In this document: piece after piece, positions 1,867 to 11,707 of the stretch | Position numbering within the stretch: the first letter of the stretch is position 1 | How the letters are laid out: each line of letters opens with the position of its first letter | Assembly: GCA_018711035.1 (NCBI GenBank) | Contig: DVIU01000207.1 | Location: 1 to 32,627 of the forward strand | DNA length: 32,627 nt | DNA from: Candidatus Scatousia excrementigallinarum | GTDB lineage: Bacteria > Cyanobacteriota > Vampirovibrionia > Gastranaerophilales > Gastranaerophilaceae | Direction of reading: 5' to 3' | Made by a program: the position numbers and the translations under genes | Notes under the pieces: generated by a model | The model's database searches: none | Seen by the model: the letters and a program-made list of their open reading frames with translations, nothing else | Told to the model about the DNA's origin: nothing

Positions 1867-2893
1867 AATTATCAAGCACGTGCATAGCTTTTTCTATAAC
1901 AACATCGGCAGAAGGATATTTTGTACATTCGTTATGACCTTTTTCTTTAGGGCAAACCCGTTTATTGCATGGTCTGCATGGCAAATCACCGCTTAATGCA
2001 AAATACTTATTATCATCTCCAAAACAACCGAAAAGACGGATATCAGTACAACAGAACACCTCAATTAATGCAGGCTCGGAAGCTGCCCACGCGAGGTGTG
2101 CACTACCTGAATCAGGAGCTATAACCAGATTAACACGAGAGAAAAGTTCCATTAAATCATTTAAATTAGTTTTCCCCGCAAGGTTGATATACTTATCGCC
2201 TCCGATAGAAGAAATAAGCTTTTTATCCTGCTCCATTCCGGTAAAAATCAGCGTACACCTGTCCTTTAAAGCGTCAACGACCTTAATCCAGTTTTCTACA
2301 GCCCAGTGTTTAGGCTCCCAAGTTGTAGCCGGAGCAATTACAACAAGCGGTTTTGATAAATCTGCATCCTCGAGCAATCTGTCAACCCTCTGCTTTGTAA
2401 TTTCTGACTGTTCAGGCAACGACATTTTTATATTATTAATATCAAACCCGAGATATTTAGCATAATCAAGGTTCCACATAACCATGTGTAAACCATCAGG
2501 AGCCGGAGGTAAAACCTCATTAGCCCCAAGAGAAGCAAATTCTGAAGAATATTTCGAAATTATTCTTCTTTTTGCGCCGCAAAAACGCATAAAAGGCAAA
2601 CTCTTAATTCTTCTCTGACAGTCAAATGCTATATCATAATTTTCTTTTCTTAAATCAAAGATAAGTTTAACCATTTTAAAAAAGTATTTAAGATTAAATT
2701 TATTTTTACGCCAGGTATAAAGAGGAGCAAAAAAAACTTTGTCAGCACAAGAATTTCCCTGCACAATATCAATGCCTTTTTCAGTGGTAACCCAGTGAAC
2801 TTCGTATCCGTTTGCTTTCAAATTATTAGCAAGCGGAACGGTAAAAATCACATCCCCAAGCGATGATAATTTAATTAATAATACTTTTTTCAT
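1841..2893 (-). CDS. Glycosyltransferase family 9 (heptosyltransferase-like)
   Basis: A 350-residue GT-B enzyme of the ADP-heptose:LPS heptosyltransferase type, expected to work at the inner face of the membrane on a lipopolysaccharide-like core. The N-terminal Rossmann half opens with LIKLSSLGDVIFTVPLA (residues 6-22), the GT9 acceptor-site signature. The C-terminal half has the nucleotide-sugar site (VVIAPATTWEPKHW near 184-197, and APDSGSAHLAWA). It ends in a Cys-rich stretch (CRPC...C...C) often seen in this family. It lies 24 bp downstream of prepilin 1 on the same strand and may be co-transcribed with it. Which sugar and acceptor are used cannot be told from sequence. A convergent overlap with purB is present at the 3' end. 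Confidence 0.9.
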   Translation of the reverse strand: MKKVLLIKLSSLGDVIFTVPLANNLKANGYEVHWVTTEKGIDIVQGNSCADKVFFAPLYTWRKNKFNLKYFFKMVKLIFDLRKENYDIAFDCQRRIKSLPFMRFCGAKRRIISKYSSEFASLGANEVLPPAPDGLHMVMWNLDYAKYLGFDINNIKMSLPEQSEITKQRVDRLLEDADLSKPLVVIAPATTWEPKHWAVENWIKVVDALKDRCTLIFTGMEQDKKLISSIGGDKYINLAGKTNLNDLMELFSRVNLVIAPDSGSAHLAWAASEPALIEVFCCTDIRLFGCFGDDNKYFALSGDLPCRPCNKRVCPKEKGHNECTKYPSADVVIEKAMHVLDNFNAGCACK

Positions 2894-11100: not shown

Positions 11101-11138
11101 CAGCCGCGAATATAAAAACTGGAATTATTATGAATTTA

Positions 11139-11147
11139 TGATATAAT
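11139..11147 (+). promoter_or_regulatory. Extended -10 promoter of the plus-strand small RNA/peptide
   Basis: TGATATAAT is a perfect extended -10 (TGnTATAAT); the -35 region (CTGGAA, 11119-11124) is a weak match. Transcription would begin near 11154. Confidence 0.6.
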
Positions 11148-11223
11148 AAATTCAGGGTAAGACTCGTCTGCCTCCGACTACACATCAACATTACTGTAAA
11201 AATGGTGGAAAGGAGGTGAGAAT

Positions 11224-11298
11224 ATGAATAAGTGTATAATAAAAAATGCCCTATCGGTAGTAGGACATTTTTTACAAATATTATCGCTTTTCATATAG
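11224..11298 (+). CDS. Very small hydrophobic peptide (24 aa)
   Basis: An ATG with an unusually strong ribosome binding site (AAAGGAGGTGAG, 5-6 nt spacing) opens a 24-codon frame ending in TAG. The peptide begins MNKCIIKNALSVVG and continues with a hydrophobic run ending LSLFI, compatible with a membrane-inserting peptide of the size of type I toxins. The second half of the frame is overlapped by an antisense transcript. There is no matching known toxin sequence I can name. The hairpin inside the frame could instead mean that the region is only a non-coding RNA. Confidence 0.45.
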   Translation: MNKCIIKNALSVVGHFLQILSLFI

Positions 11299-11336
11299 GG
11301 TCTGTAAAGGTCGCTTCACGGAGCGGCCACCCTTAT
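11248..11336 (-). ncRNA. Candidate antisense RNA of about 90 nt
   Basis: A strong minus-strand promoter (11343-11370) should start an RNA near 11336. It would end at a hairpin TGTCCTA/TAGGGCA flanked by AAAAAA and TTTTTT (about 11248-11275), an intrinsic terminator. On this strand the imperfect pair is a permitted G-U; on the plus strand it is C-A. The RNA is fully complementary to the 3' half of the plus-strand RNA, including the second half of the small ORF. Confidence 0.45.
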
Positions 11337-11342
11337 AATAAT

Positions 11343-11370
11343 ATTATAACGCATCTTAAAAATATTTCAA
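11343..11370 (-). promoter_or_regulatory. Strong promoter of the antisense RNA
   Basis: Minus-strand TTGAAA (11365-11370), 16-bp spacer, perfect TATAAT (11343-11348). It lies directly after the stop of the HTH gene at 11375, and no protein gene follows it on that strand for about 270 bp, so its product should be an RNA. Confidence 0.65.
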
Positions 11371-11374
11371 GAGG

Positions 11375-11593
11375 TTAAGCCGGCGGATTTTCGTCGGGAA
11401 CGTAGCGGAGCAGGTCGTTCGGTTTGCATTTCAGATACCAACAAAGTTTATTCAAGATTTTAAATTTAATTCCTTGAGTTTTGTCTAAATAAAGGTTTTG
11501 TATTGTTTCATATTTTACATTAATACATCTTGCAACTTCTGCAACAGTAGTCTTTCTTTTACCTATCATTGTTGAAACTTCATTTATTATCAT
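11375..11593 (-). CDS. Small XRE/Cro-type HTH regulator (72 aa)
   Basis: I place the start at the ATG at 11593 (MIINEVSTMIG), not at the longer upstream extension. A promoter with TTGTCA and TATACA lies inside that extension and its -10 ends 9 nt before this ATG, making the mRNA essentially leaderless. The protein is a compact Cro/C1-like HTH: TTVAEVARCINVKYETIQNLYLDKTQGIKFKILNKLCWYLKCKPNDLLRYVP. It has the shape of the HTH_26/YozG-like small regulators with the conserved C-terminal LC..L.C...DLL. Its neighbour downstream is the putative toxin/antisense RNA locus; a regulatory link is possible but unproven. Confidence 0.85.
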   Translation of the reverse strand: MIINEVSTMIGKRKTTVAEVARCINVKYETIQNLYLDKTQGIKFKILNKLCWYLKCKPNDLLRYVPDENPPA

Positions 11594-11602
11594 ATAGTCG
11601 AT

Positions 11603-11632
11603 TGTATAAAATTTTCCTAAATTTGTTGACAA
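11603..11632 (-). promoter_or_regulatory. Promoter of the HTH gene at 11375-11593
   Basis: Minus-strand TTGTCA (11627-11632) and TATACA (11603-11608), 18-bp spacer. The predicted start lies 0-3 nt before the ATG. The -35 lies within the short inverted repeat TTTGT-TG-ACAAA, a possible autoregulatory site. Confidence 0.55.
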
Positions 11633-11707
11633 AATCCATATATTAGGATAATATTCTATATATAAGGAATAAATTAGTAACATTACTTAATCTGGAAAGG
11701 GGTCAAA

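Follow-up and report, generated by a model that had tools for sequence, protein, structure and literature searches.

A candidate type I toxin-antitoxin module with convergent, overlapping RNAs and a 24-residue hydrophobic peptide in Candidatus Gastranaerophilales

The window (i.e., the whole stretch of DNA analyzed, 32,627 nt) belongs to a member of Candidatus Gastranaerophilales (Melainabacteria), and its positions 11119 to 11370 contain two near-consensus promoters, one per strand, which face each other with ~200 bp between them. This is the arrangement described in a previous sequence-only reading, and the two elements it had named, a plus-strand extended -10 and a minus-strand TTGAAA-N16-TATAAT, are both present. 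So are the strong ribosome binding site and the tiny hydrophobic ORF that it had placed on the plus RNA. The features of the locus are as follows.

11139-11147, plus strand: extended -10 TGATATAAT of the predicted toxin-mRNA promoter, as seen in the sequence; predicted RNA start near 11154.
11154-11333, plus strand: predicted toxin mRNA of ~180 nt, folded closed.
11154-11158 with 11329-11333, plus strand: helix P1 (AGGGU/ACCCU), a long-distance closure of the 5' and 3' ends in both the minimum-free-energy and the centroid fold.
11160-11165 with 11298-11303, plus strand: helix P2 (AGACUC/GGGUCU), predicted pairing of the leader with the stop-codon region, overlapping the stop codon.
11171-11175 with 11212-11216, plus strand: helix P3, anti-Shine-Dalgarno CCUCC with the Shine-Dalgarno (SD), plus an inner stem, from folding and covariation.
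11212-11216, plus strand: Shine-Dalgarno GGAGG, 7 nt before the ATG at 11224.
11222-11228 with 11290-11296, plus strand: helix P4 (AUAUGAA/UUCAUAU), start codon with the last codons, from folding.
11224-11298, plus strand: 24-codon ORF of the predicted toxin, MNKCIIKNALSVVGHFLQILSLFI, with a cationic N terminus followed by a hydrophobic helix; stop codon TAG at 11296-11298.
11240-11274, minus strand: in-ORF hairpin (P5), at which the minus (antitoxin) RNA is predicted to terminate; UUUUUU comes next on the minus strand.
11309-11328, plus strand: 3' hairpin (arms 11309-11316/11321-11328), followed by a T-rich stretch.
11241-11336, minus strand: predicted antisense (antitoxin) RNA of ~96 nt, deduced from the promoter and hairpin positions, overlapping the 3' untranslated region (UTR) and, counted from its 3' end, two thirds of the ORF.
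11370-11343, minus strand: predicted antitoxin promoter TTGAAA-N16-TATAAT, which scores higher than any other promoter-like site in the region (11/12).

Homologous loci were found by DNA search in several same-genus and same-family genomes. Scanning named contigs with a sequence pattern yielded 14 loci, nine of them in Candidatus Gastranaerophilales MAGs. A covariance model (R1) with a hand-set structure, spanning the segment from the anti-SD to just beyond the stop codon, detected the module in 13/13 genomes of the same genus, in 124 of 239 sampled genomes of the family (30 of 41 genera, up to nine copies per genome), and in 132 of 286 genomes of the order, only four of which belonged to other families. 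The 77 positives in a 292-genome sample of the phylum were likewise all from the same genus or family, the module being almost absent outside the latter. This covariance search, proposed as a check in the sequence-only reading, recovered homologues in which the ORF, the two promoters, and the two hairpins are all retained, and it revealed a multicopy, clade-wide family that was absent from that reading, as were the closed fold of the mRNA as a whole and the melainabacterial host. The comparative analyses below are based on 103 distinct loci, of which 62 nonredundant ones were used for the wobble, promoter, and partner-swap tests.

The genome of the window itself carries a second complete copy between other genes (G000:C179:3460-3598, minus strand, equivalent to L029 1492-1630; peptide MNRKIIKSALVVLDTLLKIIIICL) and a weak third match (C158:10084-10223, minus strand). 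Copies within one genome are diverged rather than near-identical, including tandem sets of three diverged modules ~300 bp apart in L107 (G246:C22), L075 (G101:C56), and L015/L047 (G004:C18). Neighboring genes vary, with 183 neighbors falling into 103 clusters (68 of them singletons) and no constant neighbor. At the window's site the order is DUF2400, module, HTH_26, small ORF, and PFK. Two sister genomes have a module at this same site between flanking proteins up to 98% identical, with a very different peptide (MTRELIKKALAILELLIRLIRVLI), while genome G011 lacks a module between the DUF2400 and HTH_26 genes and carries its closest relative of the window module (L009, 84% identical DNA) on another contig. 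The different peptide at the same site, the empty site in G011, and the relative located elsewhere indicate gain, loss, and replacement of the module. Viral, phage, and plasmid collections, queried by pattern or DNA, yielded no homologue, and there is accordingly no sign that the module serves to addict mobile elements.

Some additional observations concern the surroundings of the module. A same-genus syntenic DUF2400-HTH_26 site without a module (L058 2216-2571) has its space filled by an extra small gene after DUF2400, which is missing from the window. The HTH_26 gene adjoining the module is a small Cro/C1-type gene (window positions 11375-11683, minus strand); a 53% identical homologue (L010 1097-1399) adjoins the closest relative in another arrangement, and HTH-like neighbors were seen at several other module loci too.

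The ORF was retained at 21 to 29 aa in 93 of the 103 loci, with a conserved ribosome binding site and a length of exactly 24 aa in most. The peptides conform to the consensus M-[KN]-R-x-I-I-K-x-A-[LI]-x-x-[LI]-x-x-L-[LI]-[KQ]-I-I-x-x-F-[LI], have a mean GRAVY of 1.44 and a net charge of +2.6, and show an amphipathic periodicity that is helical, not beta (helical moment z +1.5). Synonymous-site conservation in the ORF, another of the checks suggested beforehand, disclosed a coding signature: pN/pS was 0.58 despite the RNA structure holding synonymous sites, and codon position 2 was the least diverse and position 3 the most. Loci in which the ORF is broken and the RNA structure kept, which had been named in advance as counterevidence, were rare (~4 to 6 of 103). 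Among the exceptions, L083 and L106 have an ATA instead of an ATG start, L086 carries a 1-nt frameshift and L020 a 10-nt duplication that break the ORF, L113 is truncated, and L015:2072-2242 is aberrant. The lesion in L086 (module at 2034-2169, minus strand) is a one-base insertion in an A-run of the ORF that leaves the RNA intact; slippage might occur at this A-run. These comparisons strongly support that the ORF is under coding selection and is translated into a peptide. A predicted small hydrophobic or membrane peptide under such selection is one of the features by which type I modules are recognized.

Across the 62 loci, a minus-strand promoter with at least 10/12 matches lay 3' of the ORF in 95%, against 7.8% in shuffled sequences, and its -10 occupied a nearly fixed position, ~41 to 58 nt past the stop codon in most loci. 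Plus-strand promoters, in general weaker than the minus ones, reached at least 10/12 in 42% (null, 5.5%). Judging from these matches, a strong antitoxin promoter opposes a weaker toxin promoter across loci. In none of 100 block-shuffled versions of the window did a convergent promoter pair enclose a GGAGG and a start codon, versus 2 overlapping calls here. Two other elements were noted in the region: a second minus-strand promoter-like site (TTTACA-17-GATAAT, 10/12, 11308-11280) lying within the ORF and 3' UTR, and an operator-like palindrome around the toxin -10 box (11133-11154, GAATTTAT-GATATA-ATAAATTC) that was not kept in the relatives compared.

The predicted plus RNA (11153-11338) folds at -60.7 kcal/mol, compared to -38.3 +/- 4.1 for dinucleotide shuffles (z -5.48, 0/200 as stable), and 12 relatives folded individually adopted much the same plan, i.e., P1 to P5 plus the 3' hairpin. 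Native helix partners bound better than swapped ones in the 62 loci for P2 (-8.7 versus -6.1 kcal/mol, P = 3e-10), the inner stem of P3 (P = 5e-4), P4 (-7.9 versus -5.0 kcal/mol, P = 6e-10), and P5 (P = 3e-6). All five modeled pairs of P4 changed on both sides. The GGG/CCC of P1 is nearly invariant in the relatives and hence affords little covariation power, its support coming from conservation only. The sequence-only reading had suggested that a leader CCTCC (11171-11175) could mask the GGAGG; this is backed by the retention of the CCUCC in 53 of the 62 loci versus 19% of shuffles, and by helices 1 and 2 of the model (anti-SD region), which covary and have 90.5% and 85.5% of cells paired. In the model alignment as a whole, 83.5% of cells were paired, versus 70% when shuffled and at most 52% when slid, with covariation of 0.36 versus 0.15 and at most 0.09, respectively; because this alignment was fitted to the structure, the partner-swap test is cleaner than the covariation score. 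An RNAalifold analysis of a first MAFFT alignment was set aside since the 5' halves were misaligned and only the in-ORF hairpin was recovered, which is why the hand-set structure model was used instead.

The SD was predicted to be mostly paired in full-length and truncated RNAs of the 62 loci. Truncating the mRNA 3' end in silico did not free it; the AUG alone was freed, and only if the 3' half of the ORF was absent. By prediction and covariation, the primary toxin mRNA would thus be structured and translationally inert, another feature expected of a type I locus.

The two hairpins carry imperfect pairs of opposite strand preference. In the in-ORF hairpin (arms 11240-11253/11261-11274), C11249.A11265 reads as C-A on the plus strand, which folds at -11.1 kcal/mol, and as G-U on the minus strand, which folds at -13.6 kcal/mol. 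In the 3' hairpin, U11311.G11326 is G-U on the plus strand and C-A on the minus strand (-16.9 and -11.8 kcal/mol). The strand assignments of the sequence-only reading, which had placed the G-U on the strand where each hairpin would act, were therefore correct; the 3' hairpin also has a second G-U, at the loop. The idea that such pairing marks two opposed RNAs generalizes strongly across the 62 loci with opposite sign, G-U wobbles being found 35 times on the minus versus 4 on the plus strand in the in-ORF hairpin (per-locus P = 1e-5) and 62 times on the plus versus 2 on the minus strand in the 3' hairpin (per-locus P = 1e-9), with the reservation that these P values assume independent loci and independence is only partial. 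Only mismatches between flanking Watson-Crick pairs were scored, and hairpins were scored symmetrically, with G-T and A-C pairs both allowed, so that neither strand was favored. Clustering at 85, 70, and 60% identity preserved the direction (in-ORF hairpin, 27:2, 10:1, and 7:1 loci; 3' hairpin, 42:2, 29:1, and 19:1 loci). The strictest clustering, into 14 groups, gave an in-ORF bias of 7 loci to 1 (P = 0.07), meaning that independent wobble events are limited in number. Wobbles in the SD/anti-SD helix were uninformative (10:11).

The in-ORF hairpin is also much more stable than when the same peptides are recoded with synonymous codons, with codon usage taken from 13 window genes (z -4.1 on the minus and -3.2 on the plus strand), and its minus form is the more stable one in 85% of loci. 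All 14 modeled pairs covary, and one subfamily uses in the stem the rare Leu codon CTA, which makes up 16 of 600 Leu codons in the window genes. The sequence 3' of the 3' hairpin has a mean of 7.4 T per 15 nt across loci. A generic terminator scan of the region called neither hairpin, so the terminator function assigned to them rests on comparative evidence. The minus RNA as a whole is mildly structured (folding z -1.9 versus shuffles). From the retention of the in-ORF hairpin in homologues and its tuning to the minus strand, the minus RNA is predicted to end at this A/T-flanked hairpin, as the sequence-only reading had proposed. The comparative data strongly support two opposed RNAs at this locus, the wobble pattern being the decisive evidence. 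At the sequence level, the minus strand has a predicted gene for an antisense RNA that is complementary to the toxin mRNA and is driven by a separate promoter, as in type I modules.

Overall, the comparisons reveal opposed RNA structures, a putative antisense promoter, coding selection on the peptide, and a predicted closed mRNA fold. The earlier suggestion of a candidate type I toxin-antitoxin locus is supported by all the comparative tests that could have broken it. The locus is quite likely a type I toxin-antitoxin module on the chromosome, one of a new family whose action would resemble that of the Bacillus pairs with convergent, 3'-overlapping genes. Transcription of the plus strand would give the ~180-nt mRNA for a cationic amphipathic membrane peptide of 24 residues, the predicted toxin. 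This mRNA would be shut by pairing of the CCUCC over the SD, of the start codon with the last codons, and of the leader with the stop-codon region, the closed fold and the local anti-SD preventing early translation as in aapA/IsoA (PMC6733600). The stronger minus promoter would yield the ~96-nt antisense RNA, which would run across the 3' UTR into the ORF, take in its last two thirds, and stop at the hairpin embedded there; by its C-A mismatch on the plus strand, this hairpin plausibly spares the toxin mRNA from early termination while the minus terminator stays good. Once paired with the antisense RNA, the mRNA would be destroyed, via RNase III, and/or held shut. As the antisense RNA is predicted to stop short of the SD, the two RNAs would most likely form a duplex that is degraded by RNase III, the mode of repression in txpA/RatA, with a structural effect on the mRNA possible besides decay, as in bsrG/SR4 (PMC6562991). 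Should the antisense RNA be lost or transcription stop, surviving processed mRNA would be translated, and the peptide would disturb the membrane.

Three other explanations were weighed. A small membrane peptide useful to the cell as a regulator or effector, whose level the antisense RNA only tunes, would suit the fact that toxicity of the peptide is a prediction and that a few loci without the ORF still keep the RNA. About half of the family genomes carry the module and a murJ/Sua5-like site is occupied by it in six genomes, so some copies look stably kept, as a useful peptide might be. Multicopy, tandem, replaceable, and patchy loci with no constant neighbor nevertheless suit a harmful product better, as do near-consensus antisense promoters and a shut message, and we regard a nontoxic peptide as rather improbable. 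The multicopy nature, the short inverted ends (GGGT/ACCC), and the strong RNA structure also recall an RNA-only element or a MITE-like small repeat, with a frame left open by chance of the hairpins. Against this stand the conservation of codon position 2, the pN/pS value, the in-frame 21 to 29 codons with a conserved ribosome binding site, the amphipathic periodicity, and the divergence of same-genome copies; the RNA-only and MITE-like readings were rejected on the coding signature, the periodicity, and the diverged copies, and have very little chance of being correct.

A leader peptide or attenuator of a downstream gene, with the in-ORF hairpin acting on the plus strand, would fit the shortness of the ORF and the T-run that follows this hairpin on the plus strand too. 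It is contradicted by the wobble bias that tunes the hairpin to the minus strand, and the ORF has its own 3' hairpin; moreover, downstream genes differ and tend to lie on the opposite strand (53 minus versus 40 plus), the next gene in the window being convergent. We rejected the leader-peptide reading as very improbable.

Reports of type I modules had until 2025 been confined to Proteobacteria, Firmicutes, and Tenericutes (PMC12390103). The present data place a widespread, multicopy, structurally well-defined type I-like system in Melainabacteria, uncultured cyanobacterial relatives common in guts, and the covariance signature of the family can be used to find more. The wobble pairs reveal which strand each hairpin serves and provide a clean comparative test of opposed RNAs, and this test could be run genome-wide to find antisense-controlled genes without transcriptomes. 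A more tentative possibility, which we consider doubtful at this stage, is that the modules form an independently evolved, clade-wide type I class in host-associated Melainabacteria, with one stretch coding for the peptide, sealing the start codon, and forming the antitoxin terminator, and constitute a fast-turnover bank rather than a plasmid-addiction relic. If true, the patchy copies, tandem arrays, and fixed-site replacement would mark a bank of growth-arrest or anti-phage modules.

Database searches identified no known counterpart. Rfam gave no match at gathering score; S4-Bacteroidia (22.8 bits, gathering 34.7) and STnc430 (20.8, gathering 47) surfaced far below threshold under permissive filters and were taken as chance. 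Seven family peptides searched against Pfam up to E = 10 matched only DUF3896 (E = 0.14, one peptide), no NCBIfam entry matched the family peptides, and none of the known toxin peptide profiles in Pfam/NCBIfam (Fst, Hol_Tox, TisB, and others) did, very short peptides limiting the power of such searches. A search of PDB sequences gave no usable relation. With no Rfam, Pfam, or NCBIfam entry, and with a literature search that turned up no type I report from the Cyanobacteriota/Melainabacteria group before the Microcystis locus of 2025, the best explanation is a new, apparently sequence-unrelated family of the known type I kind.

Among the known systems with very small toxins, Ibs is shorter than TisB; IstR-1 does not belong to the 3'-overlapping antisense RNAs, and the ibs gene is covered by Sib over its entire length. 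The family peptides gave no Pfam match at threshold, which sets them apart from tisB and ibs. The Escherichia coli tisB/istR-1 toxin resembles them as a similarly tiny amphipathic membrane peptide (TisB, 29 aa; PMC11449926). Within the Cyanobacteriota/Melainabacteria group, a type I-like locus has been described for Microcystis aeruginosa, msoT1/msoA1, presented in 2025 as the first from beyond Proteobacteria, Firmicutes, and Tenericutes; it is from one photosynthetic strain, with candidate toxins of 39 to 81 aa and two predicted transmembrane helices in MsoT1 (PMC12390103). By this description it differs from the present module in toxin length range and predicted helices, and the covariance model found no match in the nonfamily part of the phylum sample.

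An inert primary toxin transcript masked by an anti-SD has been described as a hallmark of type I loci, and the module shares with Helicobacter aapA/IsoA and plasmid hok/Sok an inert mRNA, a masked SD, and a 5'-3' long-distance interaction (PMC6733600). It differs in that the antisense RNA overlaps the 3' half rather than the 5' UTR/SD, with a predicted end within the ORF, that the anti-SD is a local upstream CCUCC whereas aapA/IsoA masks the SD by a 3' anti-SD via the long-distance interaction, and that, according to folding, 3' trimming alone does not free the SD; membership in the aapA/IsoA group is not indicated. The closer likeness is to the Bacillus subtilis pairs txpA/RatA, bsrG/SR4, bsrE/SR5, and yonT/SR6, convergent genes with a 3' overlap and a small membrane peptide. 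In these systems, ~100 nt of the toxin mRNA, on its 3' side, are bound by the antisense RNA, and in bsrG the SD is sequestered too (PMC6562991); compared to an overlap of ~100 to 140 bp in the txpA/bsrG type, the predicted overlap here is ~93 nt, in the same arrangement. The module would work like the txpA/bsrG type, but having no detectable sequence or Rfam relation to the Bacillus systems it is not filed as a member. It further departs from them in its peptide of only 24 aa, in an antitoxin terminator predicted to lie inside the coding sequence, and in a start codon that would pair with the last codons.
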